Source: Candidatus Zhuqueibacterota bacterium
GTDB lineage: Bacteria; Zhuqueibacterota; Zhuqueibacteria; Oceanimicrobiales; Oceanimicrobiaceae
Reading direction: 5' to 3'
Length of the DNA: 33,189 nucleotides
Assembly (NCBI GenBank): GCA_029262055.1
Contig: JAJDAD010000075.1
Location: forward strand, 1-33,189
Of this stretch, positions 1,166 to 8,298 are shown in pieces. The stretch's first letter is position 1. Every line of letters starts with the position of its first letter. The notes beneath the pieces are model-generated. The model did not search any database. It saw only the letters and a program-made list of their open reading frames with translations, and was not told the DNA's origin. Position numbers and translations under genes: made by a program.

Positions 1166-2212
1166 TCAATTGAGGCTTGGTGATTCATCTCTTTGTAAAC
1201 CTAAAGACCCTAGCAAGCAGAAAGAATTCGCCTGGTTCGCATGGCCCATCCAACTTGCTATGCGCTGTTCCGCATTATCACAAGGATATTTTTGCCATTC
1301 ATTAAACCGTTTCTTGAATTTATGAACGTTCTCACTACTTAATCTCCGATGTGTTCTGAAGATGAGTTGGCCGAGAAACTGGTTGCCGTTTTGAGCCGAA
1401 TAGACGTTGCATCTTGTCGGATGTAAGTTCAGGCGATACTGTTGCAGAAAATCGGCTATTCTCTTTTTCCAATGGTGCAGAATCTTTTTTGAGTTTGAAA
1501 AAAGAACGAAATCGTCAACATATCTGACGTAAGCGCAGCAGCCTAGCTGTTGTTGAACAAAATGGTCGAGTGGATCGAGATAGTAATTTGCGAAGAATTG
1601 GCTGGTCAGGTTGCCAATCGGTAAGCCCTTGCGTCTGTCAAAGGGCGTGAATAGATCGTCTTGTGGGAAGTATGAATTTTCGCCTTCCTGGAAATTACTA
1701 GCGTCAATAATTGTGTCGATTAATGACAGTGTTTTTTTGCAACCTAGTCTTTTTCGGGCCAGGCTTTTCAGGATAGTGTGGTCAATAGACGGGAAGTACT
1801 GTTTGATATCGCATTTAAGCGCAAAGCTATATTTTCTTAGAAATTTCTGATATCGTCTGATGGCTTTGTGAGTACCCTTTCCGACTCGATTGGCGTATGA
1901 GTCAAAAATAAAACTCCGCTCCAACAATGGTCCTATGATATTCATTAAGGCATGGTGGACAACGCGGTCTCGAAAGGGCGCTGCGCTGATCATGCGGGGT
2001 TTGGGATCATAGATCCGAAAAGTTCTGTACCTGCCGGGCTGATAAGTGCTTTCACTGAGTTCATTTTGTATTTGGTAGAGATTTTCTTCGAGCTTAAAGA
2101 AGAACTCAATAACGTAGCTTTTCTCCCGTTTGCCCTTTGCCGCGTTTTGAGCCGCGAGTAAAAGGTTTTCAAAAGAAGCGATTTGATGAAACAGATTCTT
2201 GAAGGTCTTCAT
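1166..2212 (-). CDS. DGR reverse transcriptase
   Basis: A 348-residue reverse transcriptase of the diversity-generating retroelement class. Visible RT motifs are the first catalytic Asp in LKCDIKQYFPSID (D135), the motif LPIGNLTSQ (197-205) and the catalytic box YVRYVDDF (YVDD at 231-234). The [I/L]G-x3-SQ form of the middle motif, in place of the usual QG-x3-SP, is characteristic of DGR enzymes. There is no maturase or endonuclease domain, which argues against a group II intron. In DGRs this enzyme, with Avd, copies the template-repeat RNA into cDNA with errors at adenines. It lies downstream of the TR (2407-2534) and the Avd gene in the same direction. The start has no strong ribosome binding site. 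Coding GC looks lower (about 32-43 percent in three sampled 60-base lines) than in flanking housekeeping genes, which may indicate acquisition. Confidence 0.96.
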   Translation of the reverse strand: MKTFKNLFHQIASFENLLLAAQNAAKGKREKSYVIEFFFKLEENLYQIQNELSESTYQPGRYRTFRIYDPKPRMISAAPFRDRVVHHALMNIIGPLLERSFIFDSYANRVGKGTHKAIRRYQKFLRKYSFALKCDIKQYFPSIDHTILKSLARKRLGCKKTLSLIDTIIDASNFQEGENSYFPQDDLFTPFDRRKGLPIGNLTSQFFANYYLDPLDHFVQQQLGCCAYVRYVDDFVLFSNSKKILHHWKKRIADFLQQYRLNLHPTRCNVYSAQNGNQFLGQLIFRTHRRLSSENVHKFKKRFNEWQKYPCDNAEQRIASWMGHANQANSFCLLGSLGLQRDESPSLN

Positions 2213-2223
2213 CTCAAAATTGA

Positions 2224-2267
2224 GAGCAGGCTTCTCTTTCGAGACATCCTACTGAAGAAGCCTGCTC
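2224..2267 (-). other. 12-bp stem-loop in the TR-RT spacer RNA
   Basis: GAGCAGGCTTCT (2224-2235) pairs perfectly with AGAAGCCTGCTC (2256-2267) around a 20-base loop. It sits just before the RT start codon. In characterised DGRs the RNA segment 3' of the TR is structured and is needed for priming of cDNA synthesis. This hairpin is a good candidate for part of that segment; the role is inferred. Confidence 0.6.
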
Positions 2268-2346
2268 CGGGTTATGTTTGGGTTCACTCCGTCAACGGCG
2301 GAGCGGCCACTGGCAGAAGAACCGCATGTCATGCCCGAACACCAGT

Positions 2347-2368: not shown

Positions 2369-2406
2369 CATCAGGAACGAGCACCTGCCGGGTAGCCGGT
2401 GGGCAT

Positions 2407-2534
2407 GATTGGGGACGCACAACACGAAACCCGATATTGTTGTTCCTGTTCTCGGGATTGTTGTTGTTGCGCTCGGAACAACGCAGGTTTTGTGTATTGT
2501 TGTTCCACGAGCCGCCGCGCAGAGCGCGGGCGTC
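2407..2534 (-). repeat. DGR template repeat (TR)
   Basis: This 128-base segment is the near-copy of the end of the NACHT gene (3301-3428, offset 894). Read on the minus strand it spells the same FGE C-terminus, but with AAC/AAT codons at the variable sites ([16 protein letters not shown]). The two copies differ at 18 sites. Seventeen are at template adenines (17 of 35 adenines, against 1 of 93 other bases). The remaining C/G difference is in the last dozen bases, where the initiation-of-homing element normally differs between TR and VR. Homology stops abruptly at 2534. A frame is open through the TR, but I regard the repeat as non-coding template RNA. Confidence 0.96.
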
Positions 2535-2553
2535 AGTTTGGTTCTTCTCCACC

Positions 2554-2569
2554 TGGCTTTTGCAAGCCA
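2554..2569 (-). other. Stem-loop just 5' of the template repeat
   Basis: TGGCTT (2554-2559) pairs with AAGCCA (2564-2569) across a TTGC tetraloop. On the transcribed strand it lies 19 bases before the TR begins, so the TR is bracketed by hairpins on both sides. It is a plausible domain of the DGR RNA. Confidence 0.45.
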
Positions 2570-2614
2570 AGTTCTGTTAGTTCTGACATTTCTCACTTCA
2601 GGGTGGTAATCAAA

Positions 2615-2641
2615 ATTATAAGTTTTTAGTCAACTTAACAA
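2615..2641 (-). promoter_or_regulatory. Candidate promoter for TR RNA and RT
   Basis: On the minus strand TTGTTA (2641-2636) is followed 15 bases later by TATAAT (2620-2615), about 80 bases before the TR. The spacing is short for a sigma70 promoter. The same stretch also reads TTG, 20 bases, TAATTTTG, which resembles the Bacteroidota -33/-7 pattern. Independent transcription of the TR RNA would fit known DGRs. This is a weak call. Confidence 0.3.
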
Positions 2642-2642
2642 G

Positions 2643-2839
2643 CTCCCATCTTGGGAGGGGACAGATTCCAACTCGTGCAGAGTTAGAATCAGGGGTGGGT
2701 CCGTGGCATGCGGCTAGCGGTAGCACCAACCCCGGTTCAAAGCGCTGAACGCGATTTGAACCTGCCCCTCCGCGCGCGTTGCGCGTTTGGAGGGGATTAT
2801 TACTTGCGAATACTTGCTTCCGGTCAGCAGAATGCAAGT
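2643..2839 (-). ncRNA. Array of six consecutive stem-loops between avd and TR
   Basis: No gene fits here, but nearly the whole stretch folds into adjacent hairpins. H1 is 2643-2657 (CTCCCA/TGGGAG). H2 is 2664-2690 (two 5-bp segments around one mismatch). H3 is 2692-2733 (8 of 9 pairs closing a longer loop). H4 is 2734-2762 (GGTTCAAA/TTTGAACC with an inner GCG/CGC). H5 is 2765-2795 (CCCCTCC/GGAGGGG with an inner CGCGC/GCGCG). H6 is 2812-2839 (ACTTGC-TTC/GAA-GCAAGT, one bulge). H3, H4 and H5 abut almost directly. None is followed by a good U-run, so simple terminators do not explain them. The strand is assumed from the surrounding operon. A structured RNA or DNA element belonging to the DGR is my best guess. 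Confidence 0.5.
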
Positions 2840-2851
2840 GAGAAATGTGAG

Positions 2852-3205
2852 TTAGTTTTTATTCTTGACACCAGGGTTTTTCATCCACCCGCCAAGAAGT
2901 CTGCCTAATTCGACCAACTTCTGGCTGCCAAATTCATAGGACTTTAAATTGATGAAACGCATTTCATAACTTAATCTAAACAAAAGGCGCAGGCGTGCCA
3001 GAGCTTCATCAGCCTGTTTCAATAGTGGCAGTTTATTCTGCCTCATGTTGGCGACAGTTGTCGCTTCGATAAAATCCAAAATGCCGTTTTCCAGTTTGGC
3101 CGCGACGCTAAAACGATAACTCCTGGGGAACTTACCCGTATGTTGCAACAGCCATTTGGAAAAATCATAACCCCTCTTAATAATAAGCATTTCAGCGGCT
3201 GCCAT
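2852..3205 (-). CDS. avd: Avd, DGR accessory variability determinant
   Basis: A 117-residue, almost all-helical basic protein. It matches what I know of the Avd four-helix-bundle family, which resembles the S23/IVS proteins: GKFPRSYRF (24-32), ARLRLLFRLSYEMRF (70-84), then LKSYEF and a C-terminal GRLLGGWMK (101-109). Avd proteins form a pentameric barrel that binds the DGR reverse transcriptase and the TR RNA and are needed for mutagenic homing. The ATG at 3205 is preceded by GGGAGGG at about six bases. It lies 85 bases downstream of the target gene's stop and upstream of the TR and RT, the common DGR order. Confidence 0.92.
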   Translation of the reverse strand: MAAAEMLIIKRGYDFSKWLLQHTGKFPRSYRFSVAAKLENGILDFIEATTVANMRQNKLPLLKQADEALARLRLLFRLSYEMRFINLKSYEFGSQKLVELGRLLGGWMKNPGVKNKN

Positions 3206-3265
3206 TTTTACCCTCCCGATTTCTCATACCAAAAAGTCAAATATAGAAAAAATTTCGATCAGAAA

Positions 3266-3288
3266 CTCAGAGAGACAGATTCCCTGAG
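3266..3288 (-). other. Stem-loop just downstream of the variable repeat
   Basis: CTCAGAGA (3266-3273) pairs with TCCCTGAG (3281-3288) as an 8-bp stem (one G-U pair in RNA) with a seven-base loop. It begins three bases after the target gene's stop and 12 bases past the VR, and the TR has no equivalent. Characterised DGRs have a hairpin/cruciform with an 8-bp stem close downstream of the VR that promotes target recognition, so that role is likely. A T-run about ten bases further along means a terminator is the alternative. Confidence 0.5.
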
Positions 3289-3290
3289 AT

Positions 3291-6290
3291 TCATTTTAAG
3301 GACTGGGGACCCACAACACGAAACCCGATAATGACGTTCCTGACCTCGGGAACGTAGCCGTAGCGCTCGGAACAACGCAGGAACCGTGTATTGTCGTTCC
3401 ACGAGCCGCCGCGCAGAGCGCGGGCGTCTTTATCCCTGTCATACCAGTTTTCCATCCATTCCCAGACGTTGCCGGCCATATCGTGCAGCCCTTCCGGGGT
3501 AGCGCCGTCCGGGTAGCGTCCGACCGGCGTGGTGGCGCCGACGTTGTGGTCGTAGTTTGCCAGCTTCTCATCCGGTCCACCCTTATTTTTCGGCCACGGG
3601 TACTCTCGTAAGGAGCCATCCGGCGTCCGTCCGGCAGCGGCCCAAAACCATTCGATCTCAGTCGGCAGGCGATAAAGGTCCGGGATTCTTTTTAAATCAC
3701 GCTCGCCGTTTTGCGCCGTCTCCAGGCAGGAGAGCCAGAAACAGTAGGCGCGAGCGGAATACCAGCTTATGCCGACAACCGGTTGTTCATCCTGGTTAAA
3801 ATGCTTGTTGCCGTCCTCCTCCGAACGCAATTTTCCCGGCCAGTCTTTGAGTTCGCTGCCCAGGTACTTGTCGTAACCCGAGATGGTTTGTGCAAATGCG
3901 CGCAGTTTTTCCGCGAAAAGCTCACGCCGGAGGATGCGGCTCGTTTCATCCGGCTGATTGTTGAGATAGGCGATAAAGCGGCGGTAGCGTTTGTTGGTGA
4001 CCGGGTATTTGGCAACATAGATATCCGGGACAGGTTCGACTTTCTCTGATACGGAGTACTTGAACTCTCCGCCCGGAATACGAATGTATTCAGCCCGGTC
4101 CTCCTGCTGATTCCGGAATGAAGGCCGCTCTGGAAAAAGTTCCGAAGCCGACATTATTTCTTCAGGAGAGATCACCATCTCTTGCGCATAACTCAAGTTG
4201 GCGGTATCACCCGCATTCCTGGTCACAAAAAGCTCTACTTCAGCAAGTGCCGCAGGTGTGCCGATGGTTTTCAAGCATTCCAGTACGTATCTCTGCTGAT
4301 TGGTGCCCGTAGTTTTGTTATGTAATTTTCTGGCGAGCGCATCAATTTTCTTCTGGGGCGCTTCCCGTACCAGGGTTTGCAGTAAATCCTGGCTCTTTTG
4401 CTGTAATTCTTTGCTCTTTGGGGCTGCGAAAAAACGAGCCATAAACTTATCAAAAGTACCATCGTCAGCCTCACACATAAAAAAGCGCAACGGTTCTTCC
4501 CACCAGTCCTCACCAAAGTGGTTGACCAGCTTTTTGAGCCATGTTTCCTTATTGTCTTCTTTGATGATCTGCGCGCCGGCCAGGTATTCACGAAACGATT
4601 TGTGCCGGAAAATGTAGTCGGTTCCGCCGTAGTTGGCCAGCAGGCCGGCCCGATCGACGAGATTCTTACAGAAAACTTCGGCATCCGGTTGCTTTTCCAG
4701 TGTATTCAGAATGGGCTGCATGCGGGCGTGCGTGTCTTTTTTTGGGGCCTCATCTTTCCCCAGGGTGTCCTGCATCCAGAGCGCAGTGGGTGAGAGCACC
4801 CGTCTGGCTTTGTCCGCAGGTAGTACCGGCAGCAGGTTACGGCGCTGGTCGCGAAAGTCTAGCAAGTAATTAAGAGAAGCGTTGTACAATTCAGACCGGC
4901 TCTGCGGAAGAATGTCACGTTCCTGCCAGAGGATGGCCATGATTTGCAGCAGCATGGGGACAGCGGCGAGCTGACGCAAACTTTTGTTTTTCTCATCCTG
5001 CAGAAAGTCGATGACAGTCTTCACCTTTTCGTCCGCCCGTTCGGCCTGGTGGTCGAGCCACTCCTGCGAGGGCTCGCCATCGTCCGCATAGTTGCGCTGG
5101 AAAACGGCACGAAACCACTTGGTCAAAAAGTCTGACTGTTGCTCAGGGGAAAAATCGCGTACATCGGCGCGCCGATGGTCGAAGCCCAGCTCGACGCCGT
5201 CAGCTTTGCGGTAGCCGGTCCAGCGCGAGGTCACGACAAATTTTGCGTTTTTAAGACCGGCACAGGTGTTGTCGATCCAATCGCAGACACGTTTTCTTTG
5301 TTCGAGGTCGCTGATTTCGTCAAGGCCATCGAGCAGCACCAAAGTCGGGCGTTCGTGCAGCCAGTCGTGAAACTCATCCGCCGAAATAGTGAGCACGTGC
5401 TTTTTCGCCCATCTTGCGAGATTTTCCGGCAAAGAGTCCGGAGTGGCGTCCTTTGGCTCTAACTCCCGCAACGGGAAGTAAAGCGGCAGCACGGGTTCCT
5501 TGAAACCGAACTTTCTGTAGCCGTCACCCGCGAGACAACTGACGGTGTAATATTTCATCAGGGTGGTCTTGCCGGAGCCCGGATCCCCGATAAGCAGCAA
5601 CAAACGGTATTTGCGGAACGTTCGTTTTAAGACATTTTCCGGCGTAGCATATTTTTCGTCTGTTTGGGACTGCTTCATTTTGCCCGGTTCGAAGCGGCTT
5701 TCGCTGCGCCAGGTTTCGGAGAGATCGAGCGAGACAAATGCATCGAGTAAATTTACCGGTACGCTTTCGATATCGGGGGAGCCGAGGATTTTGATGCTGC
5801 CGAGTTCTTCTGCGAGGGCAGCGCGGTAGCGTTGTTCGGCGGTTTTGGCCTTAGTCTCTTGTTCAGTTTGCGCGCGTTCGGCTGCGGCTTCTAGCTTTGC
5901 GAGTTCCTCTTTCTTAATTTGTTCCAGCCGCAACTGCTCCAACTTTTTCTCATATTCTTGTTTTACTTCTAGTTTGGCTTGTTCCACTTCCTTTGTGTGA
6001 CGGACACTTTTTCGGTAAACGTAAACTCGAAACAACAATCCTCCAAGAGCAATTAAGGCTACGACGATGTAGACCAAATCCCTTAAGGCAATGTCTCCTC
6101 CCGTATTCGTATCTTGATTTGGGTGTGTTCTGACTTCTGCTTGAAGGAGTTCGGTACTGTCCAAAACTGACGAATCTGACTTGGCTTGTTGGACAACCGG
6201 GGCAGGCTCTTGCCTTTGAGTTTCCTGCGCAAATAAATTGGAAAAACTGAGGCAGGCCAGCAAACCGAACCACACGTAGAGTTTAACCAT
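3291..6290 (-). CDS. DGR target: membrane-anchored NACHT ATPase with variable FGE/CLec domain
   Basis: A 999-residue protein. Residues 1-22 look like a signal peptide (FA-Q). Residues 70-92 form a membrane span followed by R93, K94, R97 and K100, predicting a cytoplasmic C-terminus. Residues 95-160 are a charged coiled coil. The NACHT/STAND ATPase follows: Walker A GDPGSGKTT (235-243), Walker B LVLLDGLDEI (317-326) and TSRW (354-357). A helical region leads to an FGE-sulfatase/C-type-lectin-like domain from about 735 to the end (IPGGEF, VTNKRYRRF, YRLPTEIEWFWAA, MAGNVWEWMENWYD, LRGGSWN, IGFRVV). The last 43 codons are the VR. Compared with the TR, residues D966, R969, F970, Y977, G978, Y979, V980, V983, V986 and I987 are altered. 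STAND proteins are switch-like sensors that oligomerise on ligand binding; here the ligand-contact face is the part being diversified. The start has a strong GGGAGGGG site, and the gene begins 19 bases after the sigma54 activator gene. Confidence 0.93.
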   Translation of the reverse strand: MVKLYVWFGLLACLSFSNLFAQETQRQEPAPVVQQAKSDSSVLDSTELLQAEVRTHPNQDTNTGGDIALRDLVYIVVALIALGGLLFRVYVYRKSVRHTKEVEQAKLEVKQEYEKKLEQLRLEQIKKEELAKLEAAAERAQTEQETKAKTAEQRYRAALAEELGSIKILGSPDIESVPVNLLDAFVSLDLSETWRSESRFEPGKMKQSQTDEKYATPENVLKRTFRKYRLLLLIGDPGSGKTTLMKYYTVSCLAGDGYRKFGFKEPVLPLYFPLRELEPKDATPDSLPENLARWAKKHVLTISADEFHDWLHERPTLVLLDGLDEISDLEQRKRVCDWIDNTCAGLKNAKFVVTSRWTGYRKADGVELGFDHRRADVRDFSPEQQSDFLTKWFRAVFQRNYADDGEPSQEWLDHQAERADEKVKTVIDFLQDEKNKSLRQLAAVPMLLQIMAILWQERDILPQSRSELYNASLNYLLDFRDQRRNLLPVLPADKARRVLSPTALWMQDTLGKDEAPKKDTHARMQPILNTLEKQPDAEVFCKNLVDRAGLLANYGGTDYIFRHKSFREYLAGAQIIKEDNKETWLKKLVNHFGEDWWEEPLRFFMCEADDGTFDKFMARFFAAPKSKELQQKSQDLLQTLVREAPQKKIDALARKLHNKTTGTNQQRYVLECLKTIGTPAALAEVELFVTRNAGDTANLSYAQEMVISPEEIMSASELFPERPSFRNQQEDRAEYIRIPGGEFKYSVSEKVEPVPDIYVAKYPVTNKRYRRFIAYLNNQPDETSRILRRELFAEKLRAFAQTISGYDKYLGSELKDWPGKLRSEEDGNKHFNQDEQPVVGISWYSARAYCFWLSCLETAQNGERDLKRIPDLYRLPTEIEWFWAAAGRTPDGSLREYPWPKNKGGPDEKLANYDHNVGATTPVGRYPDGATPEGLHDMAGNVWEWMENWYDRDKDARALRGGSWNDNTRFLRCSERYGYVPEVRNVIIGFRVVGPQSLK
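3301..3428 (-). repeat. DGR variable repeat (VR)
   Basis: The 3' end of the NACHT-FGE gene, ending eight bases before its stop codon begins. Against the TR there are 17 substitutions at template adenines: 9 A-to-G, 8 A-to-T and none to C, on the coding strand. There is one C/G difference (3311 versus 2417) in the terminal initiation-of-homing segment. The adenine changes alter ten codons, mostly AAC/AAT converted to Tyr, Val, Gly, Phe, Ile or Asp. The conserved framework residues of the lectin-like fold are unchanged. Confidence 0.96.
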
Positions 6291-6309: not shown

Positions 6310-8298
6310 TTAAAGATTGGTAGCTGTCGAGCCTTTTTTTATCCCAAGCTTCTGCATGCGGGAACGCAGCGTGTTGGGATTAATCCCCAAACGTAATGCC
6401 GCGCCCTTTGGTCCCTCGATACGCCAGTTGGTTTGCTCCAGAATCGTCAAAATGTGACCGTGCTCCACATCTGCGAGTGTGGTACTGGCTTGGGAAGACC
6501 CGGTCGGACTTTTCAGAAGCTCTATACTTTCGTCCAGTTGCAGGGTTTGGTCTTTGGTCAGAATAATCGCCCGCTCGATGATATTTTCCAGCTCGCGCAC
6601 ATTTCCAGGAAAATGGTAGGCCTGCAGAGTCTTCATCTCTTTCTGCGGGATAGTTGAAACCCTCTTTCCCAATTTTGCGCTGCCCTTTCCCATGAAGTGG
6701 TTCACCAGCAGCGGGATATCTTCCGGACGTTCCCGCAACGGCGGCAGAGAAATGGGGAATACATTCAACCGGTAAAACAGGTCTTCACGAAAGTCACCTG
6801 ACTGAGTGGCCTGCTCCAGCTCCCGGTTGGTGGCTGCAATCACTCGGACATCTACTTTGATCGTCTGCGTGCCGCCGACTCGTTCAAATTCCCCTTCCTG
6901 TAAAACACGTAAGAGTTTAGCCTGCAAATCCAAAGGAAGATCACCAATTTCATCTAAGAAAATGGTGCCGTGGTCGGCCAGTTCGAAGCGGCCTTGTTTG
7001 CGGGACAACGCACCGGTGAACGAGCCCTTTTCATGGCCGAATAATTCGCTCTCAATGAGGTTTGCGGGTAAAGCCGCGCAATTGACCTTTACCAGCGGTC
7101 TTTCCTTGCGGGGGCTCAAGGTGTGCAAGGCCCGGGCAATGAGTTCTTTGCCGGTGCCGGTTTCTCCCAGGATCAGAACCGTCGCGTCAGTTTCCGCGAC
7201 CTGCTCGACTTTGTGCAAAACTTTCTTGAAAGGTCCGCTGACACTGATGATTTCATCGAAATTATGCTCTAGTTTGATCTCTTCCTGTAAGTAGACATTT
7301 TCAGCCTGCAACCGGTCTTTCAGTTGTTCCACCTCGGCAAGAGCATTGCGCAGCGCCTCTTCAGCCTGTCTGCGCTTTGTAATATCTCGAAACGTGACTA
7401 CTGCCCCGACCAGGTTGCCGGCATCATCACGGATAGGCGTGCTGGTGTACTCGACAGGAAGGCTACTGCCGTCTTTACGCCAGAATAATTCGTCTGTCAC
7501 TGTGTGAGTTTGGCCATCTTTGAACGCGGCATAAATTGGACACTCTTCTTTGGGGTATTGCGAGCCGTCCGTCCTGGTGTGGTGAATGAGATTGTGCTGT
7601 GGTTTTCCAAGCAGGTCTGAGGCATCCCATCCCAGGATTCGGGCTGCGGCGGGATTCACAAATGTTGTGTTTCCAAGCAGGTCAAGACCATAAATGCCTT
7701 CGCCGGCGGATTTCAGAATGAGCTCATTTTTGTCACCGAGCTGCTGCAGCGATTTATAAAGCTGAGCGTTTTTTAGAGCAACGGCGGCCTGGTTTGCAAA
7801 AATCGCCAGCCGGGAGCGCTCCGCTTCCTTAATGGCTAAACGACTGAAGATAGCCAGGACGCCAAGAAGCTCATCTCTAAACACCACCGGATAGCCTGCG
7901 AAGGACTTGAGCCCATTTTCCGTGAGCCACAATTTGTTGGTTACCCGTTTGTCGGCCTGAACGTCATTGGTGATCAGTGGTTTGCGGTCTTGGGCAATTA
8001 GGCCTATCTTGAATGCTCCTAACGGAATGCGGCGATATTCGCCGTCAATGTGGGTATGTATCCCGGCACTGGCTTCCAGATGCAGGCACTGCACCTGGTT
8101 TGCACAACTGCCGGCTTTGTGGCATTCGGTGCACAGGTCACCGGGACCCAATAACCAGATGCGCGCAAATGCGGCGCCCAGGTCGTCTACCAGGCCTTGA
8201 GTGATTACAGCCAGGATTTCGCGCACGTCCAAAGTGGACGTCATTCTAAGGGCAATTCGCTCCAGGCTGTCACCCTTGCTTGAGAGCTGAACGGACAT
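6310..8298 (-). CDS. Sigma54-dependent activator, GAF-PAS-AAA-Fis
   Basis: A 662-residue enhancer-binding protein. An N-terminal GAF domain (about 20-180) contains four cysteines, C56-xx-C59-x5-C65-x5-C71, followed by [12 protein letters not shown] domain covers about 190-310 ([23 protein letters not shown]) and a coiled coil 311-345. The AAA+ sigma54-interaction domain has Walker A GETGTGKE (378-385), the sigma54-contact loop as GSFTGA (425-430; the usual form is GAFTGA) and [10 protein letters not shown] Fis-type helix-turn-helix ends the protein ([20 protein letters not shown]). There is no receiver domain, so signals probably enter through GAF/PAS. It is the first gene of the DGR cluster, and the next start follows after 19 bases, so co-transcription is likely. 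The promoter it controls is not evident. The start has only a modest GAGG site. Confidence 0.93.

Follow-up and report, generated by a model that had tools for sequence, protein, structure and literature searches.

The NACHT-FGE type of system is already described for cellular diversity-generating retroelements (DGRs), as are NACHT-CLec targets with transmembrane (TM) variants (Dore et al. 2024, PMC10907252). In the purple sulfur bacterium Thiohalocapsa PB-PSB1, DGR 3/6 comprises a reverse transcriptase (RT), a template repeat (TR) and a NACHT protein whose C-terminal CLec/FGE domain carries the variable repeat (VR), in a genome with several DGRs, TM variants, MITE-like insertions and some loci for which action in trans has been proposed (PMC10907252). 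The locus described here has the same layout and its source genome the same features, whereas its host is a Calditrichota-type bacterium; moreover, a conserved AGUAG hairpin and a YCTK tract are described here for its family. The phage element BPP-1 likewise shows the order Avd-TR-RT, adenine mutagenesis and a duplex between TR end and spacer followed by CA (spacer A56). On the other hand, the present element is cellular, has an FGE-NACHT target instead of Mtd and shares 36% RT identity with BPP-1, whose spacer is without the AGUAG hairpin, while the present locus is without a clear GRNA hairpin after the VR. We take the priming adenine of BPP-1 to be spacer A56. The variable protein TvpA of Treponema denticola (2y3c) has an FGE-type C-type-lectin variable domain like that of the present target, but is a surface lipoprotein without NACHT. 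Finally, ternary conflict systems with a DGR-diversified FGS domain (eLife 2020, PMC7159879) resemble, in their Trypco2, trypsin, AAA/MoxR-like and FGE genes, another locus of the source genome (on contig C86), whereas the target studied here is a NACHT protein and not a vWA protein.

The window, that is, the whole stretch of 33,189 nucleotides that was analysed, contains a chromosomal DGR of a well-known kind, with the following main parts.

1166 to 2212, minus strand: DGR reverse transcriptase, 348 aa, with IGNLTSQ and YVDD (RVT_1; phrog_1423 reverse transcriptase, E 8.7e-117)
2407 to 2534, minus strand: template repeat (base-by-base alignment with the VR)
2852 to 3205, minus strand: Avd accessory protein, 117 aa (PF22296; NF033474; phrog_3206)
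3291 to 6290, minus strand: target protein, 999 aa, with signal peptide/TM, NACHT, FGE-sulfatase (C-type-lectin fold) and C-terminal VR (Pfam; hydrophobicity; AlphaFold2/Foldseek)
3301 to 3428, minus strand: variable repeat, codons 955-996 of the 999-aa target

RT, Avd, target gene, TR and VR all lie on the minus strand. The RT is of DGR type (IGxLTSQ and YxDD) and aligns with BPP-1 bRT at 36% and with the VP58.5 RT at 43% identity, its GLPIGNLTSQ/YVDD motifs standing opposite GIPIGSLTSQ/YMDD of BPP-1; Avd reaches 99.5 bits with the NCBIfam equivalog NF033474, against a cut-off of 80. The RT and Avd that the initial annotation had recognised from the letters are therefore confirmed. The element is chromosomal and not part of a prophage because its neighbours are, as we presume from the translations of the open reading frames, transketolase, glutamine-fructose-6-phosphate transaminase and GMP synthase.

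TR and VR were compared base by base over 128 bp without gaps and differ at 18 positions, which on the plus strand are nine T>C, eight T>A and one G>C. Since the whole DGR is encoded on the minus strand, the 35 plus-strand T's are the template adenines; 17 of these 35 are changed, as against 1 of the 93 other bases (Fisher P = 1.1e-10), exactly as first annotated. The sole non-adenine difference is G 2417/C 3311. Adenine-driven amino-acid changes affect ten target codons (966, 969, 970, 977-980, 983, 986 and 987), with AAY codon placement seen in the VR. These ten codons had been noted before, together with the statement that framework codons were intact, to which codon 994 (CGT>GGT, R>G), where the one non-adenine difference falls, is an exception. 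One further codon, 996 (CAA>CAG), differs silently at the site 2409/3303.

2409, minus strand: fixed A in the TR against G in the VR (3303), IMH*/IMH mark and predicted first template base (A/G in 11 loci)

In eleven related loci (the window, contig C2 of the source genome, G001, G031, G017, G033, G037, two in G052, G030 and G036) the last bases before homology stops are ...AA in the TR and ...AG in the VR; at the pooled A>G rate of 0.25, the probability of meeting this ten times by chance is about 1e-6, a rough figure since the loci are related. Because this A/G recurs in all eleven, comparison of the loci identifies 2409/3303 as a fixed IMH*/IMH mark separating target from template rather than as a product of mutagenesis, and mutagenesis therefore accounts for 16 differences, at 16 of 34 adenines. 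The earlier count of 17 adenine differences thus stands, whereas the attribution of all 17 to mutagenesis does not. The true end of TR/VR homology is really 2409, because positions 2401-2408 pair with the downstream spacer and the A/G pair is fixed in relatives.

The initial annotation had proposed aligning relatives' VRs to the TR, and comparison of TR/VR pairs found changes confined almost wholly to adenines: in the pooled core of the window and related TR/VR pairs, 297 of 549 adenines are changed and 3 of 1461 other bases (P 3e-195), A>G (138) and A>T (125) being common and A>C (34) rarer. Furthermore, at non-adenine sites where the TRs of two lineages differ, each VR matches its own TR (7/7 sites for window/G001, 15/16 for window/C2, 19/22 for window/G031 and 15/16 for window/L120), the simplest reading of these sequences being that, once the lineages had separated, copying from the TR replaced the VR in each of them. 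Since relatives share both the adenine bias and this concerted evolution, activity in the lineage is supported beyond a single pair; as a statement about the past, the claim that the element has been active is well supported by sequence comparison. A search of viral contigs for relatives gave one only, at 44%, and no near-identical VRs for comparison.

The RNA around the TR contains two structures for which covariation was found, the first of which is a predicted priming duplex.

2401 to 2408, minus strand: TR 3' arm UCAUGCCC of the predicted priming duplex (IMH*; covariation over 13 loci)
2329 to 2336, minus strand: spacer arm GGGCAUGA of the predicted priming duplex (pairs 8/8 with the TR 3' arm)
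2327 to 2328, minus strand: CA following the spacer arm, with A at 2327 as candidate priming adenosine, analogue of BPP-1 spacer A56 (from the duplex and the BPP-1 mechanism, PMC12875486)
2552 to 2571, minus strand: small hairpin CUUGGCU..AGCCAGG directly 5' of the TR, similar in G031 (read by eye from the sequence)

The stretch of eight bases past the fixed A, UCAUGCCC, is complementary at every position to GGGCAUGA of the spacer, after which CA follows. Over 13 loci 99 of 104 such pairs are formed, compared with a mean of 57 for shuffled partners (maximum 88 in 5000 shuffles), and the arms covary, as in UCAUACCU/AGGUAUGA, UUAUGCUC/GAGUAUAA and AACACCCG/UGGGUGUU. Taken alone, the duplex has P 0.07-0.14 in three loci, in one of which (G052b, L074) the best-scoring arm is not the positionally expected one. 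In BPP-1 the corresponding pairing is AUCACCU/AGGUGGU and then CA, the A of which is counted here as spacer position 56. Because the spacer duplex and CA geometry match spacer priming in BPP-1, where cDNA synthesis starts inside IMH* from an adenine within the spacer (PMC12875486), the fixed A 2409 is predicted, by analogy, to be the first templated base.

With high confidence, the locus is best explained overall as a chromosomal DGR in which spacer-primed copying would diversify a NACHT-FGE target, a reading that draws on the TR/VR adenine bias, concerted TR-VR evolution, gene content and the covariation of two RNA structures as seen in the sequences. According to this mechanism: i) an RNA containing the TR and its flanks would be bound by RT and Avd; ii) the TR 3' end UCAUGCCC would fold onto the spacer GGGCAUGA, and the A of the next CA would prime cDNA at TR base 2409; iii) template adenines would be misread by the RT; iv) the mutated cDNA would replace the VR and thereby change codons at the C-terminal end of the FGE/C-type-lectin domain of the target.

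The second structure lies in the TR-RT spacer and is accompanied, on the target side, by a repeated motif.

2224 to 2287, minus strand: conserved TR-RT spacer hairpin with A-rich GAACAUAA lead, 13-bp stem and loop AGUAG...UCGAA (covariation, 13 loci; model R1 63.6 bits)
3257 to 3292, minus strand: repeated YCT[GT] motifs directly after the VR (enrichment after VRs of related loci)

The AGUAG hairpin lies 117-183 nt past the TR. Among the 13 loci compared, every one of its 13 stem pairs has two-sided compensatory change, with 94% of cells paired compared with 40-47% when the frame is slid. The covariance model R1 recovers both copies in the source genome and 23 places in 19 of the 290 genomes searched; of ten matches on which the model was not trained, six stand behind a recognisable TR and two behind an FGE/VR-like stretch, while the last two have no recognisable feature beside them. 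At G017:C2:623760 an AGUAG-hairpin TR is part of a TR/VR pair with no RT within the 18 kb read; a DGR RT lies about 110 kb away from this pair (L132, G017:C2:623556-623822) on the same contig. R1 has no significant match at the C67 locus of the source genome, in BPP-1 or in other phage DGRs. Rfam holds no DGR RNA family and no AGUAG-hairpin family, and nothing on conserved DGR spacer RNA structure was found in the literature searched, which leaves aside the structure of the BPP-1 RNP by Handa et al. (2025).

The YCT[GT] motif, which was picked post hoc, recurs every 6-11 nt after VRs, the longest chain having a mean of 3.06 compared with 0.86 at 345 other gene ends (P 2e-12); in seven further loci the chain is 3-4 in three and 2 in one. 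A GC-rich inverted repeat with a GRNA loop just downstream of the VR is a mark of BPP-1 and phage DGRs (PMC3240598). After the VR of the window there is no clear repeat of this kind, only a weak CTCAG/CTGAG stem, and many relatives carry a GC hairpin some 50 nt beyond the VR, past the YCT[GT] motifs; the GRNA hairpin marks phage DGRs and is not needed in all DGRs. As a tentative proposal, the AGUAG hairpin and priming duplex may form a transferable recognition tag of this DGR clade, such that tagged TRs are copied in trans by an RT-Avd encoded at another place in the genome; RT-less TRs would then be functional modules, with the YCT[GT] tract as the matching signal on the target side. The hairpin model can find templates missed by RT-anchored surveys, which matters for counts of trans-acting DGRs, and the comparison, made outside Bordetella phage, bears on the cDNA start site and on the one-base difference between template and target. 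It is this RNA comparison that constitutes the added value here, conserved folding around the TR being less ordinary than the DGR itself.

In the source genome (5.74 Mb, 114 contigs, 97% complete) three DGRs come with an RT of their own, in the window and on contigs C2 and C67. The nearest named relative is a Caldithrix sp. MAG (RT 71%). The C2 element (RT 67%) has the same NACHT-FGE layout as that of the window, and the C67 element (RT 44%) has three NACHT-FGE targets. A multi-DGR genome of a Calditrichota-type bacterium is hereby added to the NACHT-sensor DGRs. Group II intron-type-like reverse transcriptases occur at or near contig ends (ends of G000:C38 and C107, start of C51). On C86 (L028, G000:C86, 6441-9228) a TR at 8074-8217 serves three VRs, two of them in one 1187-aa tandem-FGE protein; its best-matching TR/VR cores have adenine-only differences and zero non-adenine ones, and the locus adjoins Trypco2, trypsin-like and AAA genes. 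No RT or Avd was found on the 16 kb read of C86, and no further DGR RT in the assembly beyond the three. The simplest reading, by analogy with the proposal for some PB-PSB1 loci, is that one of the three genome RTs would serve this TR in trans; less simply, it may be served by an RT missing from the assembly. At the C86 TR the TR-end duplex has P 0.05, R1 is not significant (8.1 bits, E 0.07 in 700 bp) and a visible AGUAG-like hairpin is only suggestive.

The target has an N-terminal signal-like segment, a strongly hydrophobic stretch at about residues 67-91, NACHT at 229-395 (54.6 bits, cut-off 26.7) and FGE-sulfatase at 734-993 (133 bits), and is probably, from these sequence features, a membrane-anchored NACHT protein. 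With an AlphaFold2 model of its last 270 residues (pLDDT 84, pTM 0.89), Foldseek gives matches to formylglycine-generating enzymes and to TvpA of T. denticola, and TvpA was also found by profile search (2y3c, E 8e-42). The VR (codons 955-996 of 999) occupies the C-terminal end of the C-type-lectin fold; the diversified end is likely the binding tip of an immune-sensor-like protein. The combination of a STAND NTPase with a diversified CLec domain is that of NACHT/STAND DGR conflict systems, and the target is likely the sensor of such a defence system, a putative antigen sensor of the type already described for cellular DGRs. As regards an effector or adaptor, which such systems have as a domain or in a neighbouring gene, the N-terminus of the target is signal peptide/TM plus a coiled stretch without known effector, and its gene neighbours encode an isochorismatase-like protein and a sigma-54 regulator. 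It is possible, if somewhat doubtful, that the role of the diversified domain is in ligand signalling or in the recognition of kin or other cells instead of antiviral sensing: PMC10907252 mentions kin recognition as another option, the target carries a membrane anchor and signal peptide, and PADLOC gave no model above noise for it. However, NACHT with a variable C-terminal sensor is the antiphage NACHT/Avs layout (PMC10907252), and another TR of the genome serves the trypsin/AAA-type conflict locus on C86.

Every core part had been described as intact, which is accurate for the coding parts and the TR-flanking RNA, but the VR is followed by no obvious GC-rich hairpin, as noted above, and a MITE separates avd from the TR.

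2583 to 2851, no strand assigned: MITE with 16-nt terminal inverted repeats and 6-7 bp target duplication TTAGTT (genome matches, inverted repeats, flanks)

The MITE (269 bp, terminal inverted repeats 2583-2598/2836-2851) belongs to a family with about 32 matches in the genome and lies between the avd stop and the TR with TTAGTT on either side, the avd stop codon being kept within the target duplication; from about 45 nt upstream of the TR onward the sequence is unaffected. The C2 and G001 loci have 14-47 nt at this position and no MITE there. An Rfam search gave one sub-threshold whalefall-1 match, inside the MITE. By splitting avd from TR and RT, the insertion could reduce their co-expression. 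The DGR may in that case have been silenced recently, the differences recording past activity and the VR now being frozen. For this speak the position of the insertion directly at the avd stop, where C2 and G001 have none, and the single non-A change at VR 3311, which is derived relative to the TR and VR state of G001. We consider such silencing unlikely: the insertion falls outside RT, Avd, TR, priming duplex and 3' hairpin, each of which is intact, and there is one non-A difference only among 93 sites. The preferred reading is that of a DGR that was active in the past and may still be so.

That a gene fragment and the gene simply diverged or underwent gene conversion, without mutagenic reverse transcription, is vanishingly improbable: TR and VR are similar nearby repeats that alone would not require a DGR, but the restriction to adenines (P 1e-10 in the window, 3e-195 pooled), the placement of AAY codons and the RT and Avd in the cassette argue against it. 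The TR/VR differences of the window and relatives and the match of each VR to its own TR already contradict it, and the initial identification of a DGR with adenine mutagenesis holds, together with its diversified target.

Changes in length were also seen in VRs. The G001 VR (L067, 1528-1677) has a 6-nt insertion relative to its TR within an AAC repeat, giving two extra codons, which suggests, from this sequence, slippage as a second source of diversity. In one of the three C67 targets (L027, G000:C67, 11534-11666) a one-base length change in an AAC-rich part of the VR shifts the C-terminal frame.
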